64,000 nt of DNA, from positions 1 through 64,000 of IMG/VR virus record IMGVR_UViG_3300020185_004854. One strand, 5' to 3'. Made by a program: the position numbers and the translations under genes. The notes below the pieces were generated by a model. That model saw nothing but the letters and a program-made list of their open reading frames with translations. It was not told where the DNA came from and did no database searches. Shown here piece after piece: positions 14,921-54,186 of this stretch (positions are counted from its first letter, which is position 1; every line of letters begins with the position of its first letter). The stretch comes from a virus.

Positions 14921-15472
14921 TTAAATATCAAGTCTTGTTGGAATAATCGTTTCCCCCTTGTCGTTTTTAACTAGCGCATTAACCAATTTACATTTAGCCG
15001 AATTAGCTATAAAAACTTTTGAATTACCTTTAGAATCTAAAATTCTACTTAAATTATTTGGATTTATTTCAACACATTCTAATAAATCTTTTCCATTATA
15101 CTTACCTGCATCGTAGGAATGAGGGTACAAACCTTCTTCTTTATTTAAATAACAAATAATTCTTCCATATTTAATATTAGCATTCAATTTGTAACTAACA
15201 AAACACCCTATGCAAAAATCTTTTTTTTCAAGCAATTGATTCCTTGGGGTGTATGGTTTACATTTACTCCTTCTTATCTTAAAGCTTTTAATTTTACCAA
15301 TCATTTTTTCAATTGGCTTTAAAGTTTTTGGATGAACTTGCATACATTCAAAAGTAGGATCAGATTTATTGTCGGATAATATAGTTAATATTTCACCAAC
15401 TCTTTTTTGCAATTTAAAAGATTTTTCTTTCACGAAATCTCCTATGGATAGTTCCCTGTTTGTTTTTTTCAT
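14921..15472 (-). CDS. Protein with two internal repeats, 183 aa
   Basis: Residues about 8-72 and 86-165 follow the same plan: '(S/C)IG.FV', a 'K..GRI/GEIL' strand, 'ECMQVHPKTL' or 'ECVEINPNNL', and a closing 'S.KC.' motif. This suggests a tandem small β-barrel (SH3 or KOW-like), a fold often used to bind RNA or protein; the binding role is inference. Overlaps the UV endonuclease gene by 4 nt. Confidence 0.6.
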   Translation of the reverse strand: MKKTNRELSIGDFVKEKSFKLQKRVGEILTILSDNKSDPTFECMQVHPKTLKPIEKMIGKIKSFKIRRSKCKPYTPRNQLLEKKDFCIGCFVSYKLNANIKYGRIICYLNKEEGLYPHSYDAGKYNGKDLLECVEINPNNLSRILDSKGNSKVFIANSAKCKLVNALVKNDKGETIIPTRLDI

Positions 15473-16470
15473 GCGGTAATTGAATTCCCCCTCAAGAGAC
15501 GAATAGCTTTATCTTTAGCTTTAACTTCACATTCCCATTTAGCCTCTTTATTTGGGTCGATAGCAATATGCGGTGGAATGTTACCAAGGGCAAAATAATC
15601 TGCGTGTGATCTTGGTTTATCGGGCTTACCCTCTGACCAATGGAAGACAGGAGCAAGAAAGTTATTATCCCCAACCCCTTGGTTTACCCATGTATACGCA
15701 CAACGCTCTGCTTGGAATGAAACATTGTGATCTTCTGATGGGTTACAGAAATCGTGTAGGTTATCATAACAAACAGGAATATTTGCGCCAAATGTTTCAA
15801 ACAAATGGTCGCTAAATTTAATGCAGTTATCTACATTGAAGAAACCTTTGTCTTCATTTTCGATAGTCAAGCGTTTATAAACACCTTTCTCACACATAGA
15901 AAGATTACGAAAAAATCTAGTCGCAACTATCTCTAGTGTTTCATCCATTTTTGGAGTATAATTAATATGTATGTTCATTGGCGCGGTATGGTCTTGTGGA
16001 AGACCTAACATATCAAGAACACTTGCTTGAAAATTTAGCTCATTTATTGTACGAGCAACTTTATCTCTATCGGGAGATGCAAGAACATTAAATTGGTCGG
16101 GATGAGAACCCATGCTAACACCATGTTCTCTAGCAGTATCGCCTACTTTTTTTAATTCTTCTTGGATTTGCTTAATATCGGGCAACTCTTCAATATCAAT
16201 ACCCAAAGTTTCATCGGTAACGAGAGGAAAAAGAGCAGAACTAACACGATAATGCCCGATATTTGACTTAGCACAATGACCAACAATAGATTCAGTAACA
16301 ACAACATTATGCAAAATTCTATTAGATAACTCTTTAATTGTTTCATCTCTACCATCTTTTACACATAAATCATTGAATCGTTTACGAGTCATCGTGCGAA
16401 AAGAATATCTTTTTTTATCTTTTTCTTTAAGCTCTTCGCTAATACAAGTTAATCCTAAAATAGTTTTCAT
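15469..16470 (-). CDS. uvsE: UV damage endonuclease (UvdE/UvsE family)
   Basis: 333 aa, a TIM-barrel enzyme that nicks 5' of UV photoproducts. Recognisable family blocks: LGLTCISEELKEKDKKRYSF near the N-terminus, YRVSSALFPLVTDE, SMGSHPDQFNVLASPDRD (metal-binding His), NIHINYTP, LTIENEDKGF and the acidic/His pairs in VCYDNLHDFCNP. Full length for the family. It gives light-exposed phage DNA a one-enzyme repair entry independent of host UvrABC. The promoter puts +1 on its ATG. Confidence 0.9.
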   Translation of the reverse strand: MKTILGLTCISEELKEKDKKRYSFRTMTRKRFNDLCVKDGRDETIKELSNRILHNVVVTESIVGHCAKSNIGHYRVSSALFPLVTDETLGIDIEELPDIKQIQEELKKVGDTAREHGVSMGSHPDQFNVLASPDRDKVARTINELNFQASVLDMLGLPQDHTAPMNIHINYTPKMDETLEIVATRFFRNLSMCEKGVYKRLTIENEDKGFFNVDNCIKFSDHLFETFGANIPVCYDNLHDFCNPSEDHNVSFQAERCAYTWVNQGVGDNNFLAPVFHWSEGKPDKPRSHADYFALGNIPPHIAIDPNKEAKWECEVKAKDKAIRLLRGNSITA

Positions 16471-16476
16471 AAGTAA

Positions 16477-16505
16477 AGTTTATAATTTATAACATATAAT
16501 GTCAA
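16477..16505 (-). promoter_or_regulatory. sigma70-like promoter, leaderless geometry
   Basis: TTGACA (16500-16505), 17-bp spacer, TAAACT (16477-16482), 6 nt, then the uvsE ATG at 16470. Confidence 0.65.
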
Positions 16506-16530
16506 CATCTTTTTATACCACACTAATAAA

Positions 16531-17469
16531 TTAATCAAAAACCTTGCAAAGCTCTAAACCTTTTCCTGTTATCTTTCTCTTACCATCAATTTCAATGAGG
16601 TTCTGATTTAATAAATACAATTCGTGATCTCTTTGCAATGCGGTTTTACTCATACCGATTTTTGCCGCAAGTCCTGTTAGGGTTGCTGAACCACAATTAT
16701 TTAAAGCTTGTAAAATTTGTTTTTCAGTATAAGTGATTCCATATGGTAAGATGCCGACTTGGTCAGATAGATCAGCGAAATGTTGTAATCCAAAAACATA
16801 ACAATCTCTCGCTCCACAATATAATTCTATCTCCTTAGCCCTCTTTACTGCGCTACGAGCATTACCTCTAATTGTACTAGCAATTTTTTCTTCAACTCTA
16901 TTTATAAACTCAACTTCGGGCGCACACAATTTTAATATATCAGATAAATGAGTAGGGCTATATGCCTCAAAGTCAACTATAGTCAATCTATCCTTGAGTG
17001 GTGGGAAAATTTTATCAGTCTCTGTAGTGGCAAAAAGAAAAGTTTGCTTTGTAAAATTAAATTCAAAAGTCATTTCGTTCCATTCAAAAGTCTTTCTCGT
17101 ATTAGATTCGGCATTAAAAATAGTCAAAAATGCCATTGTTAAATCTTGAGGTAAGGCATGGCATTCATCAAACAAGATGGTGATCTCATTATCAGCAATA
17201 AGAGGGAGAAAGATTTGTTCAAAAAATTGCTCATTGTTTTTAATTGTAGAGCAATTAAGTTCTAGGAAGGATCTTTTGTCCCCATCTCGATTGTATAAAT
17301 TTTTAGCAAACGCTTTAGCGAACTCTGTTTTACCCAAACCTTTAGCTCCAGACATTAGAAGGAAAGGGCATTGAGAAGTCTTGTTAAAAGCATCTAAATA
17401 AAAAGAAAGCTTTTTCTTTACTGCATCTTGTCCTACTAATCCTTTAAAATAATTATTTTTCATCATCAA
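16531..17469 (-). CDS. RuvB-like AAA+ ATPase
   Basis: 312 aa, close to RuvB length. 'FKGLVGQDAVKKKL', Walker A GAKGLGKTEFAKAF, Walker B ILFDECHALP, sensor-1 FLFATTETDKI, 'PPLKDRLTIVDFEAY', sensor-2-like 'GNARSAVKRAKEI', and a C-terminal winged helix (EKQILQALNNCGSATLTGLA). RuvB drives Holliday-junction branch migration; no RuvA is visible here, so it may instead act as a phage loader or remodeller. Three in-frame ATGs open the gene (17469, 17466, 17463). Confidence 0.8.
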   Translation of the reverse strand: MMMKNNYFKGLVGQDAVKKKLSFYLDAFNKTSQCPFLLMSGAKGLGKTEFAKAFAKNLYNRDGDKRSFLELNCSTIKNNEQFFEQIFLPLIADNEITILFDECHALPQDLTMAFLTIFNAESNTRKTFEWNEMTFEFNFTKQTFLFATTETDKIFPPLKDRLTIVDFEAYSPTHLSDILKLCAPEVEFINRVEEKIASTIRGNARSAVKRAKEIELYCGARDCYVFGLQHFADLSDQVGILPYGITYTEKQILQALNNCGSATLTGLAAKIGMSKTALQRDHELYLLNQNLIEIDGKRKITGKGLELCKVFD

Positions 17470-22028: not shown

Positions 22029-22829
22029 TTATTTAAAATAATTTTTGTCGTCATATCGTTTTATTTTATCTAAATCACTTGTTTTAGTAATTTTAGAATC
22101 TCTTTCGCATAAAAATTTGTAGTGTTCAATATCATCAGACCAATCTTGCCCAGTCCAGAATTCAAACCCTTTGTAGTCAGATTTATAAATACAACAATTT
22201 TCGTAACCCATTCCCATATACATATAATCTTTATTGTTTTTTATACAATAATCTATCTCAGCGAGATTTGCATATTTGCCTAAATATAATTTTGGTTCTG
22301 AATAATCCCAAGCGAATTGAGTGGAGAATACGCTATTACTACCGACATCCCTCATGTAAGTAAAAGCTATTGGAGTATGCCAGCCGCCTTTTTCAGAAGA
22401 AGTAGAGTGGTAAACCAAAAAGAATTTACGCTCTTTCTCTAATTTAATTAAAGGAGCTAAACTCCAAGGTTTAAAATTTTTATATTCTATATATTTATCA
22501 AATATATTAGTTAACACGTCTAAATTTACCTCTTGAGCTTTATAAGCCTTTATTTCAATATTATTGCATTTTTTTCTAGTCTTTTTTGCGCTTTTACTAT
22601 CTTCAAACTTTTTTAAATTTATCCTGGTTTGTCTAGCTTGATACCAATGGTTTTTGTCGCCATTATTTGGGATGAAGTAGTCGTCAGGTAACCAGCCTTC
22701 TTGTAAAGCTAAATCCTCTTCTTCTAATGGTACTTCAGCCATGCAGTCAAAAAACATATAATCATATTGAGTAATCGCCCCAGAATAATGTCGAAAATAA
22801 ATTTGGATATCAGTATTTGGTTTCATCAC
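22029..22829 (-). CDS. Aminoacyl-tRNA-protein transferase-like (ATE/Bpt) protein
   Basis: 266 aa. The order of motifs follows arginyl/leucyl-tRNA-protein transferases: 'LQEGWLPDDYFIPN' (cf. G-(F/W)-R-x-S-G-x-x-x-Y-x-P), 'ARQTRINLKKFEDSKSAKKT' (cf. CRxLRIPVxxFxPxRSQRR), then the GNAT-like core 'FAWDYSEPKLYLGKYANLAE', 'YMYMGMGY' and 'YKSDYKGFEFW'. The N-terminal Cys cluster of canonical enzymes is missing. Known members attach an amino acid to a protein N-terminus, making an N-degron. It overlaps the AdoMet-decarboxylase-like gene by 20 nt, so the pair is probably functionally linked; a small-molecule acceptor is possible. Confidence 0.7.
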   Translation of the reverse strand: MMKPNTDIQIYFRHYSGAITQYDYMFFDCMAEVPLEEEDLALQEGWLPDDYFIPNNGDKNHWYQARQTRINLKKFEDSKSAKKTRKKCNNIEIKAYKAQEVNLDVLTNIFDKYIEYKNFKPWSLAPLIKLEKERKFFLVYHSTSSEKGGWHTPIAFTYMRDVGSNSVFSTQFAWDYSEPKLYLGKYANLAEIDYCIKNNKDYMYMGMGYENCCIYKSDYKGFEFWTGQDWSDDIEHYKFLCERDSKITKTSDLDKIKRYDDKNYFK

Positions 22830-28869: not shown

Positions 28870-30810
28870 TTATTGTTCGAGTTGTATTAAATTATAATAA
28901 TGAATACAATTTTCATTATCATGTAAGGGTATTAAACTGAATAAAAAGCTATTTGTAATGACTTTTAAGTGATTAAAATCTTCTTCAGAAAACCAAGATA
29001 AGAAGATTTCTTTAAACTCATTAAGCATTGCGTTTTTGTAATCAGCATTAACAGATTTATTTAATAAAATTTCATCATAACCCAATAAAGATTGATAAAT
29101 TTTTGCCCAATCATATAGATAGTCACCATATATTGTAAGGGTATCCCCTAGTTTTCCTCGCATATCAATAAATTTTATTTTATGATTTTCATTGATTAAA
29201 ATATTTGAAAAAACTGGATCTCCGTGAATACAACTAATTCTCCCCAAATTTTTAGATTCGTAGAAGTCTAATTGTTTACATATCGCATCATAAACTTGAG
29301 CGGAATTATTAAACCTAGTATAATCATAACTTTCATATCTTTCTTTTAATTTTGTTTTATAATTTTGATATATATTTATTGTGGAATTATTAGGAGTAAT
29401 TTTTTGTAATCTCATAATGGATTCCATTACAGCTCTTAAGTTGTTTGGTTTGAGTAATTCGGATACATATAAATTTGAGACGGTTAATCCCCCCGTTTTT
29501 TCTATAGAATACCAAGTTTTATTAATGTCATAATCAATAAAAAGAGGGAACATGTCTTTAACTTGAGGGGGGATATTCGAGTAAAAATAAATTTCACCAG
29601 ATAAATCAGTAGATTTTTTAGTGTAAATTTCAAGAGAAGATTTTTCTAAAACATTAAAGTCCCTAGGTTTTATAGAATCTTGATAGAAGCCAGTTTTCTT
29701 TTCTAGATTAGAGAAAGCTGAAATAGCGTTATCATCGATATAGAAATCTGCATGAGGTTTACCGAAATATATTTCATCGTAAGGTATGTCGAATTTATCT
29801 AAGGTCTCAAATGTCACTTTCCCGATGTCAGCGTTCACCGCACCTAAATTACTTTTATGAGTTTTCATTCTGCGAGCAGTATGAATAATAATTTTGTGAC
29901 CAAAACTTTTTAAATATTTTAAGAAGTTAATGTTTTTTTGTATAGGTAGAACGGTAGAATAATCATTTGGAACTTGTGGGTAAGATACTAATGTATTATC
30001 AAGGTCAAAGCAAAATTTTAAAACTTTCATATTGACAGTTCCATCTATAGACGAAACTTTCGGGTAATTGTTGCAAAACTGTCTCAATAGGAGAGGAGTA
30101 CCTAAAGGATGATAATTGTTTTTGCCAACTAAGCTTGCTGTAAAAGGTATTTCATCATCAACCATTAGTTTTATGCAAACAGATGTATAAAATTCATTAT
30201 TAGATTTTAAATTGTTGTCTAATGCGATTTGCGTATAACTCAAAAGCTGTTGATAGGAAGCAAACCCATAAGCTCCGCAACAAGCAAAATCAGAAATTCT
30301 ATTTTTTTCTTGCAAATCTAATACACGATAGTTTTTATCTTTTAATATATAAGAGTGTGCGCAGCTAGAACTTAAATCTTGAAAATAGAAAATTTTATTT
30401 TTATGATTCCATTTTTTGATGATATTTTCTGTGTAAAAATTGTCCGAATCGAGGCAAATAATAGGAAGATCGTAATCAAGAGGCAAACTTTTTAAAGTAA
30501 GATTTATAGTTTCAGCAGCTCCTCTTGTAGGCTCGCTTAAACATTTAAAGGAAAAATTGATTTCAGGGAATTCTTTTCTAAAGGTGTCTTCAAGCCTGTA
30601 TTTTTCATGCATTTTGTGATACGTAATACAGACCAAGGTTTCTTTATTAATTTTTAAATTATTAATTAAATGAACAAGAATAGACTCCCCGAAGACTTTT
30701 ATTAACGCTTTTGGCTCTTCGTAATTATTTAATTGAAAGCGATTACCAATGCCACCAATAGGAATTAGGATAATTTGCTCAAAGGGAAATTCATTTTTAG
30801 GTAAACTCAT
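28870..30810 (-). CDS. Nucleotidyltransferase-HAD phosphatase-kinase fusion
   Basis: 646 aa with three modules. About 1-240: sugar-phosphate nucleotidyltransferase ('IILIPIGGIGNRFQLNNYEE', PKALI, then 'ICLDSDNFY'). About 262-400: HAD phosphatase ('FCFDLDNTLVSYPQ', 'IIHTARRM', 'FGKPHADFYIDDN'). About 450-646: aminoglycoside/choline-kinase-like fold ('CIHGDPVFSNILIN', 'IKFIDMRGKLGD'). Proteins of this plan occur in capsule clusters and could salvage, activate and trim a sugar or aminoalcohol. Exact substrate unknown. Confidence 0.78.
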   Translation of the reverse strand: MSLPKNEFPFEQIILIPIGGIGNRFQLNNYEEPKALIKVFGESILVHLINNLKINKETLVCITYHKMHEKYRLEDTFRKEFPEINFSFKCLSEPTRGAAETINLTLKSLPLDYDLPIICLDSDNFYTENIIKKWNHKNKIFYFQDLSSSCAHSYILKDKNYRVLDLQEKNRISDFACCGAYGFASYQQLLSYTQIALDNNLKSNNEFYTSVCIKLMVDDEIPFTASLVGKNNYHPLGTPLLLRQFCNNYPKVSSIDGTVNMKVLKFCFDLDNTLVSYPQVPNDYSTVLPIQKNINFLKYLKSFGHKIIIHTARRMKTHKSNLGAVNADIGKVTFETLDKFDIPYDEIYFGKPHADFYIDDNAISAFSNLEKKTGFYQDSIKPRDFNVLEKSSLEIYTKKSTDLSGEIYFYSNIPPQVKDMFPLFIDYDINKTWYSIEKTGGLTVSNLYVSELLKPNNLRAVMESIMRLQKITPNNSTINIYQNYKTKLKERYESYDYTRFNNSAQVYDAICKQLDFYESKNLGRISCIHGDPVFSNILINENHKIKFIDMRGKLGDTLTIYGDYLYDWAKIYQSLLGYDEILLNKSVNADYKNAMLNEFKEIFLSWFSEEDFNHLKVITNSFLFSLIPLHDNENCIHYYNLIQLEQ

Positions 30811-34877: not shown

Positions 34878-36080
34878 TTAAAAATTGATTTTTGAAGAAA
34901 TTTCATTTCCGATACTAAAGCAAGAAGTGGCGGCTGGCGAAGGCGCATTGCAGACGTTTACCATAGAACCTTCAGTTTCAATAACAAAATCATCAATTAA
35001 ATTACCAGAAGAGTCGATTGCTTGAGCTCTTATTCCAGAGGGGGATGCATCTATATCATTAGACTCAATTGATGGAACAAGTTTTTGGAGAGCTTTCGTA
35101 AAAGCTTGCTTGTTAAAAGATCTATACATTTCTCCTAAACCCATTTTCCAGTGCTGAGAAGCCATCTTTATGAAGCCTGGATAGAATATAGAATCTAAGG
35201 TTTCAATTAAATTAAAATCAAATTTTGAGTAAGATTCTTTACCGAAAGAAAAAACCGCGTTAGGGCCACACTCTACAGATCCATCCACCCTCCTTGTAAA
35301 ATGAACACCTAAAAAAGGGAATTTTGGATCAGGGACTGGGTAAATTAAATTTTTACATAAATATTCTGATTCTTTTTTTAATTTAAAATATTCACCTTTA
35401 AACGGTATAATTTTTAAAGAAGGCTTGAGCCCTGAAAGTTTTGCGACTTTATCAGAATATAAGCCAGCGCAATTTATAACTTTTTTAGCGACGATTGATT
35501 TGCCGCATTTTGACTCGATTAAAATATCATTACCATTTAATTGCGAAAGTTTTTTAGCTTTAAAATTAAAAATAAAATCATCTTTTTCACAATTTTTAAT
35601 TAAAGATGTTAATTTTTTACATACAGATGTATAATCGATGATACCACACTCCTTCACATGAATAGCTTCAATACCAGCAGCATTTGGCTCTAATTCTAAC
35701 AATCTCTGTTTTGAAATTAATTCACAATTAACTTTATTGGATAAACCCCGCGAGTAAAGCTCTTTAAGCTTAGGCACTTCTGATTCACTTGTAGCTACTA
35801 TAACCTTCCCGCATAGTTCAAAATCAATACCTTGATCATTGCAAAACCGCTCAAGAATTTTTTTACCAGACCTACAATTTAAAGCTTTCTTGGAACCTGG
35901 CTTGTAATAAATGCCAGAATGAATAACTCCAGAATTCCTGCCAGTTTGATGCAGGCAAAAGGAGTGTTCTTTTTCAACTACAGCTATCGTTTTTGTTGGA
36001 AATTTTTGTCGCAAAGAATAGGCTGTCGAGAGACCAACGATTCCCGCACCTATAACGCATATGTCAAATTCAGTTTTCAT
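34878..36080 (-). CDS. lhgO: L-2-hydroxyglutarate oxidase (LhgO family)
   Basis: 400 aa, full family length. FAD-binding Rossmann motif 'ICVIGAGIVGLSTAYSL', then the family block 'HQTGRNSGVIHSGIYYKPGS', and C-terminal 'SPSGIRAQAID' and 'NAPSPAATSCFSIG'. The family oxidises L-2-hydroxyglutarate to 2-oxoglutarate with FAD. I know no common reason for a phage to carry it; it could feed 2-oxoglutarate to oxygenases or act on a sugar-related hydroxyacid in this block. Confidence 0.85.
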   Translation of the reverse strand: MKTEFDICVIGAGIVGLSTAYSLRQKFPTKTIAVVEKEHSFCLHQTGRNSGVIHSGIYYKPGSKKALNCRSGKKILERFCNDQGIDFELCGKVIVATSESEVPKLKELYSRGLSNKVNCELISKQRLLELEPNAAGIEAIHVKECGIIDYTSVCKKLTSLIKNCEKDDFIFNFKAKKLSQLNGNDILIESKCGKSIVAKKVINCAGLYSDKVAKLSGLKPSLKIIPFKGEYFKLKKESEYLCKNLIYPVPDPKFPFLGVHFTRRVDGSVECGPNAVFSFGKESYSKFDFNLIETLDSIFYPGFIKMASQHWKMGLGEMYRSFNKQAFTKALQKLVPSIESNDIDASPSGIRAQAIDSSGNLIDDFVIETEGSMVNVCNAPSPAATSCFSIGNEISSKINF

Positions 36081-41926: not shown

Positions 41927-42091
41927 CTATTTTCCATTAAACTTTTCTTTTAATTCGAGAATAATTTTAATTTTATCTTCTTTACTTAAAGAGGCATATG
42001 ATTTTTTAAATCTGCGCAAAAGTCTTTTTTGCTCAGGGTGACCTTCGTACCCCATGATATTTTTAATTTCTTTTAATTTTGATTTATTCAT
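41927..42091 (-). CDS. Small basic protein, 54 aa
   Basis: Reads MNKSKLKEIKNIMGYEGHPE and continues with a Lys-rich helical tail ending KEKFNGK. Its ATG overlaps the GMP reductase stop by 4 nt. Not recognised. Confidence 0.5.
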   Translation of the reverse strand: MNKSKLKEIKNIMGYEGHPEQKRLLRRFKKSYASLSKEDKIKIILELKEKFNGK

Positions 42092-43059
42092 GTTTTAATA
42101 TATTCTGTATTATAAAGTGAGGTTAATGCATTTCCACCAGAATAACTAATTGAGCTCTGTAAATCCTGAGTGACTTCACGTAACTTTTCTTCGATAGTCA
42201 TATTATTACAAGGGATATTGGTGAGCTTTCCCTCTATGTTGTTTTTGTGTCCCTTACTCTCTGCACTGGCAGAGCCAAAATAAGCTTTATAAAAAGTATT
42301 ATGAACACTACTGTGGACAGCAGGGCTGTCAACGCACGCGGCAAAGAGCCCCCCTGCCATAACCATTTTCGACCCAGCAACAATAGCTTTTGCAATATCT
42401 CCGTTGTGCTTTACACCTCCGTCAGCAATGATTGGGATTTCTTCCCCGTTTCCATTAAATTCTCCAGAGTATAACCCAGAACAGTTCTGAACACAAGTGA
42501 ACATAGGAACTGTGAATCCTGTTTTACTTTTTGTTGTGCATGGAGACCCTTGACCTATTCCAACTTTCACTATGTCAGCACCCCAAGAAGCTAAAGCTTT
42601 GACAGCTTCAGGAGTCGCTACGTTGCCAGCGATAATTTTTGTGTTAGGTAAGTTTTCTTTTATAAATGCTATCATTCTTTTCATTTTTATTGAATGACCA
42701 TGCGCTATATCTATCGTTAGGAAATCTAATCTTAATTTATTAGTTCTTAATTTATTTATAATTGTTTTGTCTTTATCTTGAACCCCCACGCTAAAAGATA
42801 TTGTTTTCCAATTTTGAAGGTTAGCTTGTTCTATTTGTGCATATATGTCATTGTTGAACCTATGCATGATATAAAAGTAATCATTTTCACTCATCCAGCT
42901 TGATAAGTCTAGGTTTATAACCGATTTCATGTTAGCGGGAATGATTGGTAGTAAAAACTTTTTACCAAATAAATCTAAAGAAGGGTCGCAATCCAATCTA
43001 CTATTAACTTCGCTATACGTAGGCATTAAAGCCACGTCAGAATATTTTAAATATTTCAT
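42088..43059 (-). CDS. guaC: GMP reductase
   Basis: 323 aa IMPDH/GMPR TIM barrel without a CBS insert. 'DVALMPTYSEVNSR', 'PIIPANMKSVINLDLSSWMS', 'KIIAGNVATPEAVKAL', the catalytic loop 'VKVGIGQGSPCTTKSKTG' with its Cys, 'PIIADGGVKHNGDIAKAIVA' and 'GHKNNIEGK' flap. These features fit GuaC better than GuaB. It reduces GMP to IMP with NADPH, shifting purines toward adenine, useful for an AT-rich phage (inference). Confidence 0.87.
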   Translation of the reverse strand: MKYLKYSDVALMPTYSEVNSRLDCDPSLDLFGKKFLLPIIPANMKSVINLDLSSWMSENDYFYIMHRFNNDIYAQIEQANLQNWKTISFSVGVQDKDKTIINKLRTNKLRLDFLTIDIAHGHSIKMKRMIAFIKENLPNTKIIAGNVATPEAVKALASWGADIVKVGIGQGSPCTTKSKTGFTVPMFTCVQNCSGLYSGEFNGNGEEIPIIADGGVKHNGDIAKAIVAGSKMVMAGGLFAACVDSPAVHSSVHNTFYKAYFGSASAESKGHKNNIEGKLTNIPCNNMTIEEKLREVTQDLQSSISYSGGNALTSLYNTEYIKT

Positions 43060-47089: not shown

Positions 47090-47470
47090 ATGGAAAAGAA
47101 AAGTACAATTTTTTGTGATATAGATGGGACGATTTTTAAATACCGAGAGTTTGAAAATTATAAGAAAGAAAAGTGCCAAGTCCTCCCAGGAGTATTAAAT
47201 AAATTAAATAAATGGAGAGAAGATGGTCACATGATAATACTCACCACGGCAAGACCTGAAAACTTAAGAGAAGATACGTTGGAAGAATTAAGCATAAGCA
47301 ATGTCCCATACGACAGATTAATAATGGGAATCGAGAGAGGTGTTAGGGTTTTAATTAACGATAAAGATCCGAAATTAAAACAACCAAAAGCTATAGCGAT
47401 AAACCTTAAAAGAGACGAGGGTATGATTTTCGATAAAATAGAAATAGATTTGAAAGCTAATTCTCTTTGA
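47090..47470 (+). CDS. HAD-superfamily phosphatase
   Basis: 126 aa, minimal HAD. Motif I 'IFCDIDGTIFKYREFE' (nucleophile Asp in DxDGT), motif II 'IILTTARPEN', motif III/IV 'RLIMGIERGVRVLINDKDPK'. Close to small phosphatases found in capsule or LPS clusters and to PNKP phosphatase halves. Two nt separate it from the kinase fusion, so they may act on the same substrate. Confidence 0.85.
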   Translation: MEKKSTIFCDIDGTIFKYREFENYKKEKCQVLPGVLNKLNKWREDGHMIILTTARPENLREDTLEELSISNVPYDRLIMGIERGVRVLINDKDPKLKQPKAIAINLKRDEGMIFDKIEIDLKANSL

Positions 47471-47982
47471 TGATTTTAGATAAACAAATTAAAAATTTCC
47501 CAGAGTATTTTTACGGCGTTATCGAAATATCGAAGGGTTCTAGCAACAAATACGAATACAATAAAGATTTCAATATGATTGAATTTGATAGAAAACTATC
47601 GAGTTCAATGACGTACCCAGGAAATTACGGATTCGCGCCTAAGACTTTAGCTGAGGATGGAGACCCTGTAGATTTAATAATGCTAAGCACTGACCCCATT
47701 ATTCAATCAGGAGCACTGGTGAAATTAAAACCCTTAGCCTTACTTGATATGATAGATTGCGGATCTATTGATAACAAAATCATTGCGACAGTACTAACGG
47801 AGGAGAATATAAATGATATTGATGACGTTTGCCCAATGTTCTTGAGGAAAACTGAAGACTTTTTTGCAAACTACAAAAATTTAGATAATGAAGAAGTGAG
47901 CTTAGGAAACTGGGGAAACGCGGACGCCGCAAAAGAATATTTAAAAAGCCGATATGAAATTGGTGGACGTGGCGGGAGTTGA
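47470..47982 (+). CDS. ppa: Inorganic pyrophosphatase (family I)
   Basis: 170 aa from ATG 47470 (TGATG overlap with the HAD gene). 'GVIEISKGSSNKYEYNKDFN', 'SSSMTYPGNYGFAPKTLAED' and 'GDPVDLIML' are the PPase substrate and metal-binding signature. It hydrolyses PPi released by nucleotidyl transfer or DNA synthesis. Its last eight codons lie on the antisense strand of the tmRNA 3' end. Confidence 0.88.
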   Translation: MILDKQIKNFPEYFYGVIEISKGSSNKYEYNKDFNMIEFDRKLSSSMTYPGNYGFAPKTLAEDGDPVDLIMLSTDPIIQSGALVKLKPLALLDMIDCGSIDNKIIATVLTEENINDIDDVCPMFLRKTEDFFANYKNLDNEEVSLGNWGNADAAKEYLKSRYEIGGRGGS

Positions 47983-48399
47983 ACCCGCGTCTTTAAACCT
48001 TCAAAATACACACCTACAAGTTTAGTTAGTTTTTTTTAAAGTTATGATACTAACATCCAACTACTTGTTTTAATTATTCACTCAAATTTGAGGCCCCCGA
48101 ATACTCAGTGGTGCAGTTTTTAAAACTAGTAAAATTTTATCTGTTTTTGCAGATGTCGTCCTCGTATTCTAAATATCTGCGTCAATAAAAACGAGGGGGT
48201 AGCTTTAAGCTACCATCTCAAGCTCTTCAGCTTGCTCGAATTGCACGAGGGAATCGTACTCTTCAGTAGCAGCTTCAAGAAGCTCTTTAATGCTATAATA
48301 ACCTTCGCCATATACAGCTTTGTGTCTTGATATCGGAGCCAGACACACCTCCGACTTGCAGTATATAGATCCAACTTAAATCAAATCCAGTACACGCCC
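47961..48399 (-). ncRNA. ssrA: tmRNA (one-piece), with an unusually long tag reading frame
   Basis: All main tmRNA parts are visible. The acceptor 5' strand GGGCGTG (48399-48393) pairs with CACGTCC before the encoded CCA (47961-47963). The T-arm is GCGGG-TTCAACT-CCCGC, followed by the acceptor 3' strand. Helix 2 is CTGCAAG (48361-48355) with CTTGTAG near the 3' end. Pseudoknot 1 pairs TCGGAG/CTCCGA and GTGTCT/AGACAC (48322-48354). The tag frame stops at TAA 48205-48207 in the loop of hairpin GGTAGC/GCTACC, as in helix 5. Counting from GCT (48318) it has 37 codons, from GGC (48309) 34; it begins AVYGEGYYSIKEL and ends QAEELEMVA. No smpB is visible, so host SmpB is presumably used. Confidence 0.95.
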
Positions 48400-48419
48400 A
48401 TAAAAATTTTAAAGAACTA

Positions 48420-48436
48420 ATGCTCGCATAGAGCAT
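48420..48436 (-). terminator. Possible terminator hairpin before the tmRNA
   Basis: Stem ATGCTC/GAGCAT with a 5-nt loop, followed on the minus strand by an AT-rich, T-containing stretch. It could end the clpC-like transcript or shape the tmRNA precursor. No TTGACA-type promoter for the tmRNA was found in 48400-48536. Confidence 0.35.
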
Positions 48437-48536
48437 GCTGATTAATTTTACACATGAAAATAAAATTTGTGTATAATAATATTATATGATTCATCACGTT
48501 TCAATTATTCAAATAATAAGTTTATTAGCTATCGTG

Positions 48537-51008
48537 TTAGTTTTGAGTTGTTTGTGATTTAGAATAAGTGAATTTTTTATTCACATAATCAAATTTAACA
48601 GTATCATTATTAACGATGTCTTTTGATAATATACTCTCGCAGAGTATAGATTCAATATGCTGATTAAATAATCTTTCAATCGGTCTCGCCCCAAGATTTA
48701 AATCTTTTAATTTTGAAACTAAAAAGTCTAAAACATTTGAAGATATACTTATGAGAATTTTCTTAGCTTTCAATCTTTTGTTTAAAGTTTGCATATAGAT
48801 TGATATTATTTTTGTATAGTGATCGTCTGAGAAATTAGAAAATATTACAATATCACTTATCCGATTAACAAATTCAGGGGAAAAATGTTTACAGGCTAAA
48901 TTATTAATTTTTTCATTTATGATATCTTGATTAACTCCATTAGAGAGAAACCCAACAGATTGAGATGGTTTGTCTAGAATATCGCTGCCAAGATTACCAG
49001 TTAAAATAATTAAGCAATTTTTGAAATCAGCAGACCTACCATAATTATCACTAAGCTTACCCTCATCAAGAATCAAAAGCAAGGATTTCAAAACATCTGG
49101 GTGAGCTTTTTCAATTTCATCAAAAAGAATAACACTGTAAGGTTTTTTTCTGACTTGATCCACTAAATTACTACCATCTTCATAGCCAACATATCCTGGG
49201 GATGACCCTGTAATTTTAGAAGAACTTGAACTTTCGGAAAACTCACCCATATCAATTCTAATAATTTTATCTTCACCCCCGTAAATAAATTTAGACACTT
49301 GTTTAGCCATGAAGGTTTTTCCAGTTCCAGTTCGACCAAGTAACAAAAAGACTCCAGCAGGTTTTTGAGGATTGTTTAATCCGCAAGCTGAACGATGTAT
49401 GGATTGGCAAATTTTTTGTATAGCGGCATCCTGTCCGATAATCTCTTTCTTAAGGTTACTTTCTAACTTTAAGTACTTATCGTCCGAGGAGGATGATATA
49501 ATTGACAGAGGGATTTTAACTTTTTGAGAAATGACTTCTTCAATATTTTCTTTTGAAATGTATATCTTTTTTTTTGAAATCGTTTTCTGCCAATCATCTA
49601 AAATCGTTTGATACTTTTCAAAAAGATCATCAACGCACTCAGCTAATACTTTTCTCCTCTCCTTGTCAGTGGTAGACTCCTCCTGATCTATTAAAGATTC
49701 TAAAGAAGACTCTAAGTTTAATATTTCTTCTGGTCTGTGAAAGTTTTTCACTCGAGCTTTCGAAGCAGCTTCATCTATGATATCAATAGCTTTATCTGGC
49801 AAAAAGCGATCATTAATATATCGAGAACTAAGTTCTACCGCAGCCTCTAAAGCGTTTTTTCTGAATATAACTTGGTGAAAAGCTTCGTATTCTGGAGCTA
49901 AACTCTTTAAGATATTAAGACAATCTTTCTTAGAAGGCTCTGAAACTAAAACTGATTGAAATCTTCTTGATAAAGCAGAGTCTTTTTCAATTGAATTTTT
50001 GAATTCTTTTAAAGTGGTAGCTCCTATACATTTTAAATCCCCTCGAGCGAGTAACGGTTTTAATATATTAGCGGCATCCATTCCGCCTTCAGCATTTCCA
50101 GCACCCATTAAAGTATGAACTTCATCAATGAATAAAATGTTTTTTTCCGAGGATTCAGCTTGTTGTAAAATATCTTTTAAACGCTCTTCGAATTGACCCC
50201 TGTATTTAGTTCCAGCAAGAATACTATTAAAATTTAAACTAAAAACTTCGCAGTTAAGTAATATTTCGGGAACTTGCTTGGATACTATTCTTTGAGATAA
50301 CCCTTCTATTAAAGCTGTCTTTCCAACGCCAGCTTCACCTAAGATTATTGGGTTGTTTTTTACCCTGCGACATAAAATTTCTATAACCTGGTTAATTTCA
50401 TCTTCCCTACTGACGACTTCATCAAACTTACCCTGAGAAGCAAGTGTTGTATAATTGATTGAAAACTGCTCTAAGGGGTTTGGGTCATGATCTTTTTGAA
50501 CCTTTGCTTTTAAATTATTTTCCTTAACGCTGTTAAGGAATTTCTTGAGATCTTTACGTTTTTCTTCCACGTCGCCCTCTAGTGTAGTTTGAACAGCTTG
50601 AAAGATTACATCAGGATCCAAGTCAAAATTTAAGAATAAATTTTGAACATTAGGATTGGATTGTAAAGAAAGAAATACATGCTCAACCCCTACGTAATCA
50701 TGACCATAGGATATTGCTAATTTCGAAGAATCTCTTAATAATATTTTAAAGCTTCGAGAATAATTAATATCAATTCTTTCATTTTTAGATATAGTAGGAG
50801 GCGAAAAATTTAACACAGCTTTTTTTAATTCTTTTAAGGATAGGGCAGCCTCTCCTCCCATAGAAAAAAACAGAGTATCTTGCACTTTAAAAATTCCATA
50901 AATTAAATGTATGGGATCTACGGATTTAACTCTAGATTGCACGCATAAATTTTTAGCTATTTTAATAGCTTGTTGAACCCTGGGGGTAAAATTTGGCAAC
51001 ATATCCAT
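48537..51008 (-). CDS. ClpC/ClpA-like AAA+ protein unfoldase
   Basis: 823 aa, full ClpC length. Residues 1 to about 145: Clp N-domain repeats. D1: Walker A GEAGVGKT, pore loop GTKYRGQF, Walker B FIDEVH. A short coiled middle segment of about 50 residues, as in ClpC rather than the long ClpB one. D2: Walker A GRTGTGKT, pore loop GYVGYEDG, Walker B LFDEIEKAH. After 'ILTGNLGSDILDKPSQS' comes VGF, at the place of the ClpC loop that docks ClpP. A ClpP-partner unfoldase is therefore likely, using host ClpP. It lies directly upstream of the tmRNA. AGGAG precedes its ATG. Confidence 0.88.
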   Translation of the reverse strand: MDMLPNFTPRVQQAIKIAKNLCVQSRVKSVDPIHLIYGIFKVQDTLFFSMGGEAALSLKELKKAVLNFSPPTISKNERIDINYSRSFKILLRDSSKLAISYGHDYVGVEHVFLSLQSNPNVQNLFLNFDLDPDVIFQAVQTTLEGDVEEKRKDLKKFLNSVKENNLKAKVQKDHDPNPLEQFSINYTTLASQGKFDEVVSREDEINQVIEILCRRVKNNPIILGEAGVGKTALIEGLSQRIVSKQVPEILLNCEVFSLNFNSILAGTKYRGQFEERLKDILQQAESSEKNILFIDEVHTLMGAGNAEGGMDAANILKPLLARGDLKCIGATTLKEFKNSIEKDSALSRRFQSVLVSEPSKKDCLNILKSLAPEYEAFHQVIFRKNALEAAVELSSRYINDRFLPDKAIDIIDEAASKARVKNFHRPEEILNLESSLESLIDQEESTTDKERRKVLAECVDDLFEKYQTILDDWQKTISKKKIYISKENIEEVISQKVKIPLSIISSSSDDKYLKLESNLKKEIIGQDAAIQKICQSIHRSACGLNNPQKPAGVFLLLGRTGTGKTFMAKQVSKFIYGGEDKIIRIDMGEFSESSSSSKITGSSPGYVGYEDGSNLVDQVRKKPYSVILFDEIEKAHPDVLKSLLLILDEGKLSDNYGRSADFKNCLIILTGNLGSDILDKPSQSVGFLSNGVNQDIINEKINNLACKHFSPEFVNRISDIVIFSNFSDDHYTKIISIYMQTLNKRLKAKKILISISSNVLDFLVSKLKDLNLGARPIERLFNQHIESILCESILSKDIVNNDTVKFDYVNKKFTYSKSQTTQN

Positions 51009-53548
51009 TACTTGACGTCTCCTAGCTTCATATAAATTTTTTCTTTTAAAGGTAAAATGTTGTCGGCAAAAATAATATCAGAATATTTAGAGCCAACTAC
51101 CCCTATAATGTCGTCTTTTTCGGGGGTTTTTTTCCCAGATTCTAGGTAGTCACTGTATTTATTGCCTCTAGCGTTATCCATAAACATTACTGGGTATTTA
51201 CCGTATTCATCATTTAAGATAATCTTAATATATTTATTACCATTACGACTAACCCCTTTATAAGAATCCGAAACAACTCCAATGAATTTACCTCGGCAAG
51301 ACGCGTTATCATAAAAATCATTTGAATTATATATTGTTTCAGAATCGTTAAAGACGGATTTTAAGTCAATGCTATAACTATAACCCAAGAGTTTGGTTTC
51401 AAAGAACCAATTGGCGAATTTTTCATACTGTTTGTTTTGTAGGTAAATTGATTTGTAGTTTTCATATTTTGATTTAAAGGTGTTAAACCTAGATTCTTTC
51501 ATAAGAGGTTTTCCATCTTGAGCTATCAAGCCTTCTTTGGCAGCAGCTATAATATCTAGCAACATATAGTTATATTTAGGGCCTAAGCCAATCATTAGCT
51601 TTTTTTCTCTATCAGTTAATAAATTAAAAGACTGAGCTTCTAAAACTAGTAGAGATCTACTACAAGAATAACTAGGCAGGCAACCAGCTTGAATTAAAGA
51701 AGATAATACGCCAATGTTTAACCCTGATTGTTTAGCTTGTATGAATGTTTTGAATTTATTAGGCTTATCAGTAGATCTAAAATCGCTTAAAGATTTTAAA
51801 GATTTTTCACTAACCCCCTTGATACTATTTAAACCATAACGAAGATCACTCCCTTCTTTGGCAAAATCCATCGAAGACCTTTCCAAGTCTGGAGGCAAAA
51901 GCTTAACTTTAAAAAAGGGCAGCTCTTTACTAATTTGGCTAATTTCTTCCTGAGGAGAAGGTTCAAACTTAGTCATCCTTAACAAGCTTAGAAAGAACTC
52001 CTGAGTATAATTAAACTTTAAGAAAGTTGTCCACGCAGCTAATGTAGAATACGCTATAGAGTGACTTTTATTGAAAGAGTAATTAGCGCTATCTTCAGCA
52101 ACCTTCCATAATATTTGACCGACTTCTTCTGGAAGTTTTTGTTCAGAAATCTTGTTTTCAATTTTTTCTTTCCACAAGGACATTTGATCTACTTTTTTCT
52201 TACCAACGATTCTTCTCAACTGTTCAGCTTCGTCGAGTGAGAACCCAATTCTTACAGCCATTTTCATTAATTGTTCTTGATACAAAGGTATACCTCCAGT
52301 ATAACTCAATTCCTCTACGAAGAAATCATGAACAACGTTAAAATTATTTGTTTTTACGTACTCAGAATAAAGTTCTGTAAATTCTAGAGCTCCTGGCCTG
52401 GCAATAGCTATAACAGCGCTTAACTGCTCTAAGTTCTTAGGCTTAACTGATTGACATACCCTAAAGTTTGTATCAGCTTCTATTTGAAATAATCCATGAG
52501 GTGATCTCAAGTTATCTTGAAGCGGCAAATAAACAGAGGGATCATCTAAGTTTATAGATTTTACATCTAGATTAATATTTTTACAGACATCATAAATAAC
52601 ACTCAAAGTTCTCAAGCCCAGAATATCAAACTTAACCATTAACTCTGAGACCCAATTCATGTCATAAGCAGTGACGATAGAACCGTCATTAGTTGACTGA
52701 AGAGGGCAAATTTCAGAAATTTTATAAAAAGATATAGCAATTCCAGACGGATGCACACCAGTATTTTTATACAAACCTTCAATTTTTCTTGCAATTTTAT
52801 AACAAGCAGGATTCTCTTTCGACCAAGAAAGAAAATCTTCACTTTCTTTTGCAGAGCTCTCCAACGAGGATACTTTGCCGAATTTCTTGGGGATTAAATC
52901 GCTTACAACGTTAACTTCTTTCTCTGAAAGGTCGGAGACAATTTTACCACATTCTTTAATGCAAAGCTTACTACTTAAACTGTTTAAGGTTAAGATTTTA
53001 GAGGTCCTAGACGGGTTTTTTTTATCGATATAATTAATTACTTTTTGCCTATGCTCGTAAGCTATATCGTTATCCACATCAGCTAATAAACTTCCATCAA
53101 GATACGTTACTCCTTCTTGCTCGATTTTTTTAGCTCGACTTTCAGACACAAACCTTTCAAAGAATAGTTCGTATTTTACTGGGTCAACACTAGTCACTCC
53201 AATTAAAAATAATACTAAAGACCCAGCGGCAGATCCCCTACCTGGACCGACAGGTATATTATTTTCATGACAAAAATTAATAATATCCCAATTTAATAAA
53301 ATATAATCAACGAAACCTAATTTATTGAGAGTTTTCAGTTCAGAGCGTAACCTTTCAGAGTAATTAATGCCAAAATTATTCTTATTTAAACTTTTTTCAC
53401 ATAACGATTTAAGGAAAGTGAAGTTGTCGACATCTTCATCTAAAGATAGAGATTTGTAATATTTTTTTTCTATTTTTATTTGAGGTAAGCGCACTCCTGG
53501 AGGGACGCAATTTTTATACTCAGTAAAATTACTTGTAAAGTTATTCAT
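51008..53548 (-). CDS. dnaE: DNA polymerase III alpha, polymerase part (DnaE-like)
   Basis: About 846 aa from ATG 53548 (TAATG overlap with the exonuclease stop; a second ATG lies at 53566). 'NIPVGPGRGSAAGSLVLFLI' is the family C nucleotide-binding block; catalytic Asp residues are in 'LADVDNDIAYEHRQKVI' and 'VKFDILGLRTLSVI'. 'GIPLYQEQLMKMAV' and the helix-hairpin-helix region follow, then a C-terminal OB-like part ('GKFIGVVSDSYKGVSRNGNK'). The N-terminal PHP domain of normal DnaE is absent and is encoded separately at 54183-54932. Confidence 0.92.
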   Translation of the reverse strand: MNNFTSNFTEYKNCVPPGVRLPQIKIEKKYYKSLSLDEDVDNFTFLKSLCEKSLNKNNFGINYSERLRSELKTLNKLGFVDYILLNWDIINFCHENNIPVGPGRGSAAGSLVLFLIGVTSVDPVKYELFFERFVSESRAKKIEQEGVTYLDGSLLADVDNDIAYEHRQKVINYIDKKNPSRTSKILTLNSLSSKLCIKECGKIVSDLSEKEVNVVSDLIPKKFGKVSSLESSAKESEDFLSWSKENPACYKIARKIEGLYKNTGVHPSGIAISFYKISEICPLQSTNDGSIVTAYDMNWVSELMVKFDILGLRTLSVIYDVCKNINLDVKSINLDDPSVYLPLQDNLRSPHGLFQIEADTNFRVCQSVKPKNLEQLSAVIAIARPGALEFTELYSEYVKTNNFNVVHDFFVEELSYTGGIPLYQEQLMKMAVRIGFSLDEAEQLRRIVGKKKVDQMSLWKEKIENKISEQKLPEEVGQILWKVAEDSANYSFNKSHSIAYSTLAAWTTFLKFNYTQEFFLSLLRMTKFEPSPQEEISQISKELPFFKVKLLPPDLERSSMDFAKEGSDLRYGLNSIKGVSEKSLKSLSDFRSTDKPNKFKTFIQAKQSGLNIGVLSSLIQAGCLPSYSCSRSLLVLEAQSFNLLTDREKKLMIGLGPKYNYMLLDIIAAAKEGLIAQDGKPLMKESRFNTFKSKYENYKSIYLQNKQYEKFANWFFETKLLGYSYSIDLKSVFNDSETIYNSNDFYDNASCRGKFIGVVSDSYKGVSRNGNKYIKIILNDEYGKYPVMFMDNARGNKYSDYLESGKKTPEKDDIIGVVGSKYSDIIFADNILPLKEKIYMKLGDVK

Positions 53549-54186
53549 TATATGTTGGAGTCCCAAATCATTGATTGGAAAACTTTAAAATTTTGTTCGA
53601 TATCATAAAGGGCGTCGTGGAGCTTGTTTTCATCAAAATCAATTTTGTATTTTTGACACAAAGATTTTAAATTAGTTTTAATTCCTTTTTGTCTAATTTT
53701 TTGAAGCTTGAACTGCCAAAGAGTGAGGTCGGTGGAGTCATATTCTATATTCATAGCGTTAGCTTTCGCTAAACAATTAGTGTCAATTAAACGGTTTAAG
53801 TATGAATAATCAGATTGCTTGCCACATAATAATCTGTGAGTGTTGTGAATAAAAATGTCAAAACCTATAATGTTATGTCCCACTATGTAATAATTATCAT
53901 TATAAAAATAACTCTCAAAAAGGTTTAAAACCTCCAATGGATCTACGGCTCGTTTTTTATAGACAGACTCTTTGAATCCCGTAACTTTTTTTGCTCCATC
54001 TGATATTTTTAGATCATCCCAGCGTAAATAAAAATCATATTTTTTTTCAATACCCTTGCTTGAGCAGATTAAGAAAGCTAATTGCCAAGGCTTATTATCA
54101 GGCGAGGCTAAGTTTAAGCTGCAAGTTTCATAATCAAACACTAAGAACTTTTTATCTTTGTTAAATCTGATTAAATTTGAATTCAT
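53548..54186 (-). CDS. DnaQ-like 3'-5' proofreading exonuclease (DEDDh)
   Basis: 212 aa. Exo I 'FLVFDYETCSL' (Asp, Glu), Exo II 'YIVGHNIIGFDIF' (Asp), Exo III 'LHDALYDIEQN' (His, Asp). Presumably proofreads for the polymerase gene that follows it. It sits between the PHP and polymerase parts of a split DnaE, with overlapping stop/start at both sides. Confidence 0.9.
   Translation of the reverse strand: MNSNLIRFNKDKKFLVFDYETCSLNLASPDNKPWQLAFLICSSKGIEKKYDFYLRWDDLKISDGAKKVTGFKESVYKKRAVDPLEVLNLFESYFYNDNYYIVGHNIIGFDIFIHNTHRLLCGKQSDYSYLNRLIDTNCLAKANAMNIEYDSTDLTLWQFKLQKIRQKGIKTNLKSLCQKYKIDFDENKLHDALYDIEQNFKVFQSMIWDSNI

Follow-up and report, generated by a model that had tools for sequence, protein, structure and literature searches.

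A ClpC-like unfoldase encoded behind dnaE and a long-tagged tmRNA as probable companions in a lineage of large, mostly marine phages

The subject of this report is a stretch of 64,000 nucleotides (nt) of viral DNA (IMG/VR record IMGVR_UViG_3300020185_004854, positions 1 to 64,000; hereafter the window, and G000 among the related records), which belongs to a viral record of 68.5 kb and carries, on the same strand, a gene for a ClpC-like AAA+ unfoldase followed by a gene for a transfer-messenger RNA (tmRNA, ssrA). These are probably two real phage protein-quality-control genes that are companions in one lineage of phages, rather than the two halves of one matched unit. The universal pairing of clpC with a dnaE-like gene, which encodes a DNA polymerase III alpha subunit, is a stronger finding than the adjacency of clpC and the tmRNA, and the combination of a dnaE-clpC operon with long, exchangeable tmRNA tags represents a new arrangement of known kinds of gene.

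The dnaE-clpC pair and its phage lineage

The clpC-like gene (48537-51008, minus strand) encodes a protein of 823 amino acids (aa) and lies directly behind the dnaE-like gene (51008-53566, minus strand), and the dnaE stop and clpC start share 1 nt within the sequence TAATG. Relatives were sampled as 80 viral loci found through a search with the window ClpC and another 80 found through its DnaE-like neighbour (P0002). In 77 of the 80 dnaE-selected loci the two genes are on one strand and the distance from the dnaE stop to the clpC start is between -28 and +26 nt, and in the remaining three the contig ends at that point; clpC is furthermore held by all 50 of the dnaE-selected records that were searched. 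It is on the strength of these counts that dnaE and clpC are regarded as a conserved pair, from which ClpC would be made together with the phage DNA polymerase.

The lineage is one of uncultured, large, mostly marine phages. Its phage nature is confirmed by terminase genes, which 9 of 16 tested records contain, among them every one with a length of about 180 kb or above. No close isolated phage was found among 50,697 phage records, with dnaE identity reaching no more than 33% among the best matches listed, and a pattern scan of bacterial genomes did not single out a host, since many unrelated phyla were represented among the matches listed. No report of either a clpC-tmRNA or a dnaE-clpC arrangement in phages came up in searches of the open literature, although such an absence is no proof.

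The unfoldase and its ClpP-docking loop

The window ClpC is composed of an N-domain, a first AAA+ module (AAA1), a short middle domain, a second AAA+ module (AAA2) and a C-terminal D2-small domain, with Pfam matches to Clp_N (weak), AAA, AAA_lid_9, AAA_2 and ClpB_D2-small. Its best PHROG is phrog_4871, annotated as 'ATP-dependent protease' (E 2e-222), its best solved relatives are ClpC from S. aureus and B. subtilis, and its predicted structure, with a mean predicted local distance difference test score (pLDDT) of 82, finds its best structural matches in the ClpC chains of ClpC-ClpP complexes (E 5.6e-71). Within the N-domain the weak Clp_N match covers only residues 96-140 (E 3e-6); the predicted structure is helical over about residues 1-162, and the phmmer alignment with B. 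subtilis ClpC begins at residue 4. The middle domain is of ClpC size, the linker measuring 78 aa in the window and 63-81 aa in the lineage, in comparison to 24 aa in ClpA and 142 aa in ClpB.

Conservation was assessed in 83 distinct lineage proteins, which correspond to 49 clusters at 70% identity. The initial annotation had described an unfoldase that keeps both Walker sites, its pore loops and a VGF tripeptide at the ClpP-docking position, and all of these are present. In both AAA+ modules the key residues of Walker A and Walker B and the glycines of the pore loops are invariant, as is the pore-loop tyrosine of the second module, the equivalent residue of the first being Y with a minority of F. 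The docking tripeptide itself is formed by V685-G686-F687 (codons at 48948-48956, minus strand) and takes the form [VILMF]GF in 83 of 83 proteins, with the G and F invariant, also in 49 of 49 clusters, inside a loop whose columns beside the GF are variable, at an entropy of 2-3 bits. At the same position E. coli ClpA aligns IGL and E. coli ClpB is without such a loop; linker length and docking loop together ruled out the identification of the phage protein as a ClpB disaggregase.

The peptidase with which such a loop would engage is mostly missing from the phages themselves. No match to ClpP was found in 34 of 43 large records, among them six of 180-206 kb that hold clpC. Full ClpP is found in seven of the 43, all of them distant huge phages, and a divergent ClpP-like protein in the other two, G091 and G031; the gene in G091 forms part of the dnaE-clpC gene run, upstream of that pair. 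The ClpP-like genes of G004, G031 and G091 were counted separately from true ClpP. Their best PHROG matches are head-maturation proteases, and because this is equally so for true ClpPs, PHROGs does not settle which type of gene they represent. The ClpP-like proteins encoded at loci L256 (2208-2981), L444 and L106, which have an N-terminal helix rich in KAEA and a GMAASMAG active-site motif, may be partners of ClpC or may belong to another type of S14 protease. Loci L436-L442, from seven of the records G100-G107, combine a ClpC core with a complete ClpP bearing a GMAAS or GIAAS motif, and have the make-up of self-contained phage Clp proteases.

Because the docking loop is strictly kept and ClpP is absent from nearly all records, the phage unfoldase is best read as one that works with host ClpP. 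The prediction that phage ClpC docks on host ClpP and redirects it, in effect a form of hijacking, is well supported at the level of sequence.

What else might place a Clp unfoldase beside a DNA polymerase? ClpC could act as a chaperone that remodels replication complexes, with little or no role for ClpP. ClpX acts on MuA and ClpA on P1 RepA, providing precedents for remodelling, and such a function would explain the lock-step with dnaE, which is seen as universal pairing at translational-coupling distances. A strict ClpP-docking GF in an otherwise free loop is, however, not expected of a pure remodeller, and in one member of the lineage (G091) the run of genes also includes one for a ClpP-like protein, all of which makes this explanation unlikely.

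The tmRNA and its tag

The tmRNA (47961-48399, minus strand), recognised by both ARAGORN and Rfam, is a one-piece molecule of 439 nt that matches the full RF00023 model (1-374) at 98 bits (E 4.9e-37), well above the gathering cut-off of 47 bits. Its tRNA-like end has an acceptor stem of seven pairs, with G3.U70 as the identity pair for alanine, and the CCA is encoded. G3.U70 and a complete acceptor stem recur in 30 of 31 lineage tmRNAs, the exception being G042, whose 5' end is apparently trimmed by one base; intact identity elements such as these are features of working, alanine-charged tmRNAs, which the lineage molecules are predicted to be. Searches for an SmpB gene, in overlapping sets of 27 and 43 records, found none, such that host SmpB would have to serve the phage tmRNA. 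A convergent gene on the opposite strand, for an inorganic pyrophosphatase (47467-47982; Pfam 144 bits), runs into the 3' end of the tmRNA, the overlap (47961-47982) taking in seven codons of the gene, with the stop as the last of them.

The tag reading frame (48205-48309, minus strand) encodes GEGYYSIKELLEAATEEYDSLVQFEQAEELEMVA followed by a stop, a tag of 34 residues with a net charge of -9. It terminates in EMVA, providing the hydrophobic or small-residue end that is expected of tmRNA tags. ARAGORN gave a tag of only 21 residues through calling the start too late; in the alignment of related phage tmRNAs the resume codon, GGC, sits 13 codons earlier, and it is from this position that the length of 34 is derived. 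An internal tag frame was located in 31 records. The first main class of tag in the relatives is of 20 aa and basic, for example GNKSRIQAYSPQSEQLALAA, with extended forms of 31-32 aa, and the second is of 34-41 aa and acidic, with further minor classes also present. Mild purifying selection acts on the long class at the protein level, with a pooled ratio of nonsynonymous to synonymous polymorphism (pN/pS) of 0.32. By comparison, tags in the tmRNA database are most often 10 aa long (PMC11915505). Very long tags of 38-42 aa, such as AENNVVKMAKDLVASAKRGFATSKVVKFPAKEEVVESFALAA, also occur in further phage tmRNAs (L161, L143, L149 and L170). The tag of the G091 tmRNA (L424) is ANNIVRFEDFTACGEELALAA, the start of which resembles cyanobacterial tags, which begin ANNIV..., and which is a possible hint as to the host of G091.

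The initial annotation had placed the tmRNA 138 nt downstream of a full-length ClpC-like gene on the same strand, an arrangement that is confirmed with the gap corrected to 137 nt (48400-48536, minus strand). This intergenic stretch is recognisably alike in the window, G001 and G047, with elements in common, and for this reason the adjacency of clpC and the tmRNA is considered ancestral within that group. It includes a promoter-like site, TTGAAA-17-TATTAT (48476-48504, minus strand), which is a consensus match only, agreeing at 10 of 12 positions where about three sites of such quality are expected by chance in the region. Upstream of the tmRNA there is also an inverted repeat, TACACA-N13-TGTGTA (48449-48473), with a similar element in the same place in G001 and G047, which is possibly an operator or a processing element.

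Position of the tmRNA and exchange of tags

A tmRNA scoring above the Rfam cut-off is found in 32 of 66 dnaE-selected records (23 of 50, 8 of a further 15, and G024) and in 13 of the 16 records of at least 100 kb, against a phage background of 402 in 18,146 genomes, or 2.3% (PMC9004378). Its position with respect to clpC is much less regular. The two genes are directly adjacent in four records, namely the window, G001, G047 and G014, the ClpC proteins of the last three being 80%, 53% and 43% identical, respectively, to that of the window. They are one gene apart in six, for a single gene of about 435 aa separates them in G021, G025, G034 and G066, and the spacing is the same in G082 and G087. 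The order dnaE-clpC-[about 435-aa protein]-tmRNA thereby forms a second arrangement that is conserved, seen at L242 (G021), L238 (G025), L237 (G034) and L243 (G066). In other records the two lie 3-33 kb apart, or are separated by about 70-115 kb with the tmRNA on the opposite strand, as in G073, G076, G091 and G097; these four records rule out the generalisation, drawn from 26 records, that the tmRNA always lies on the clpC strand. The ssrA-clpC synteny in relatives that the initial annotation had looked to as a check on its proposal is thus confined to these few arrangements, and clpC is tied to dnaE instead.

Given this variability, is the tmRNA no more than a chance neighbour, a mobile passenger gene that, in some phages, came to rest at the 3' end of the dnaE-clpC run? 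tmRNAs and tRNAs often land in this manner, the position and strand of the tmRNA vary within the lineage, and tags and backbones have been swapped. Yet the high frequency among the large records in relation to the phage background, together with intact identity elements and a conserved tag frame that indicate a kept function, renders this view very improbable.

A phage ClpC dedicated to reading the phage tag would be expected to co-vary with it. A matched-pair analysis (Spearman Mantel) over the 31 records with both a tag and a ClpC gave a rank correlation between tag identity and ClpC identity of 0.00 (p 0.51), with values of -0.02 for tag and ClpC N-domain and -0.04 for tag and dnaE, whereas the control comparison of ClpC with dnaE gave 0.48 (p 0.0003). 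Tag and tmRNA backbone are correlated at 0.34 (p 0.0003). The test is limited by saturation at low identity, and so excludes tight pairing and leaves room for broad recognition of many tags. Individual records tell the same story, in that the closest pair, the window and G001, have tags from unrelated classes despite their similar ClpC proteins, and near-identical long tags are found in G057, G050 and G024 though their ClpC proteins are 40-54% identical to that of the window. From the nil rank correlation and these contrasts it follows that tags move between phages independently of the unfoldase.

These results bear most directly on the proposal of the initial annotation, a dedicated tag-and-destroy unit in which phage ClpC would prefer the phage tag over the host tag and feed the tagged proteins to host ClpP. 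The adjacency of the genes in the window, G001, G047 and G014, their separation by one gene in six further records, the conserved docking loop and the mild purifying selection on the long tags can all be cited in its favour. Tag similarity nevertheless does not track either ClpC or its N-domain, similar unfoldases accompany unrelated tags and the reverse, and clpC is constant even in records that lack the tmRNA or in which the two are as much as about 70-115 kb apart. A matched tag/reader pair was consequently rejected by the Mantel tests on whole ClpC and N-domain with their dnaE control, and there is little likelihood of a dedicated unit. What survives of the proposal is the diversion of host ClpP by a phage unfoldase, in keeping with the conserved loop and the general lack of phage ClpP; the union of tag writer and tag reader does not.

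A model for the two companions

In the explanation that we favour, two companion genes with separate roles, ClpC very probably assembles into a ring that uses the [VILMF]GF loop to dock on host ClpP, and would redirect the peptidase to substrates useful for phage replication. The tmRNA, charged with alanine and acting with host SmpB, would free ribosomes stalled on broken mRNAs during infection and would append a long C-terminal tag ending in a hydrophobic or small-residue degron. This degron could be read by any Clp ATPase that is present, whether host ClpX or ClpA, or possibly phage ClpC too. ClpP binding, the substrates, the timing and the use of host SmpB are the parts of this explanation that we infer.

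Several points weigh against it. The [VILMF]GF loop might be retained for some other reason, and ClpP binding and degradation by the phage ClpC are inferred from sequence; the records are mostly fragments, which makes it only moderately certain that clpP or smpB is missing; local linkage of clpC and the tmRNA in about three groups could mean functional coupling there; and a Pearson Mantel test of tag against ClpC gives 0.19 (p 0.002), a signal owed to a few close pairs that is gone in ranks.

A more specific proposal, which we offer tentatively as a possibility short of an even chance, is that of a replisome-coupled protease, whereby ClpC, in lock-step with the DNA polymerase throughout the lineage and working with borrowed host ClpP, would be a fixed part of replication, and the tmRNA tag would separately be an exchangeable cassette that alters how tagged proteins are handled.

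Other genes of the window

The initial annotation had also suggested that an ATE-like protein (22029-22829, minus strand) could add an N-terminal degron writer to the unit. The protein passes the Pfam ATE_C cut-off (30.2 bits, cut-off 25) without an ATE_N match, and scores 36.7 bits against the NCBIfam arginyltransferase model, far below the cut-off of 170 for full family membership. It is present in only 12 viral loci, 10 of them in records already found through clpC, dnaE or the tmRNA, and its gene lies about 2 kb from the tmRNA in G060, G092 and G095 and 25 kb from it in the window. A weak family member, so distant and so rare, is not supported as a part of the unit and is better described as an accessory gene of the same phage lineage; it may act as an N-degron writer.

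Elsewhere in the window a gene for the UV endonuclease UvdE adjoins an AAA gene that is RuvB-like and includes the winged-helix domain of RuvB, forming a DNA-repair pair (15469-17469). Among a set of sugar-modification genes there are a three-part nucleotidyltransferase-HAD-kinase-like fusion (28870-30810), a flavin adenine dinucleotide (FAD) oxidoreductase (34878-36080) and an IMP dehydrogenase/GMP reductase-like gene (42088-43059).

Comparison with known systems

Phage Clp ATPases and phage tmRNAs were each known before on their own. The present lineage, with a clpC that is locked to dnaE and has a perfect docking loop, with ClpP mostly lacking and a tmRNA usually present, provides a concrete system for testing phage takeover of bacterial protein degradation. 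The exchange of long tags independently of both unfoldase and polymerase raises a further question, which is what selects for tags that are longer than usual by a factor of two to four.

With its two AAA+ modules, N-domain, short middle domain and [VIL]GF-type loop, the window ClpC resembles ClpC (MecB) of B. subtilis and S. aureus and ClpC1 of Mycobacterium. It differs from the bacterial proteins in that it is phage-encoded, about 36-42% identical, diverged in its N-domain and fixed behind a phage dnaE. The ClpA-like protease genes of jumbo phages, for instance that of Klebsiella phage K64-1, have the same AAA+ core, give a tblastn match with the window ClpC and are annotated as ATP-dependent protease, as is phrog_4871; ClpA, ClpX, ClpP and ClpS of jumbo phages have already been noted (PMC7824862). 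Unlike the window gene, that of K64-1 is 597 aa in length and stands alone among virion genes, with neither dnaE nor a tmRNA beside it.

For the tmRNA the nearest comparison is with the OM43 methylophage Melnitz, also a marine phage with a complete tmRNA, the authors of which already proposed phage tagging of host proteins for degradation (PMC9004378). The Melnitz tmRNA is two-piece and riboswitch-controlled, and no Clp gene is mentioned in that paper, whereas the tmRNAs of the lineage described here are one-piece with tags of 19-41 aa. Finally, the huge phages with clpC and full clpP (among G100-G107) share a phage ClpC core, about 42% identical, and are likewise without a detected SmpB, but in contrast to the window they bring their own complete ClpP.

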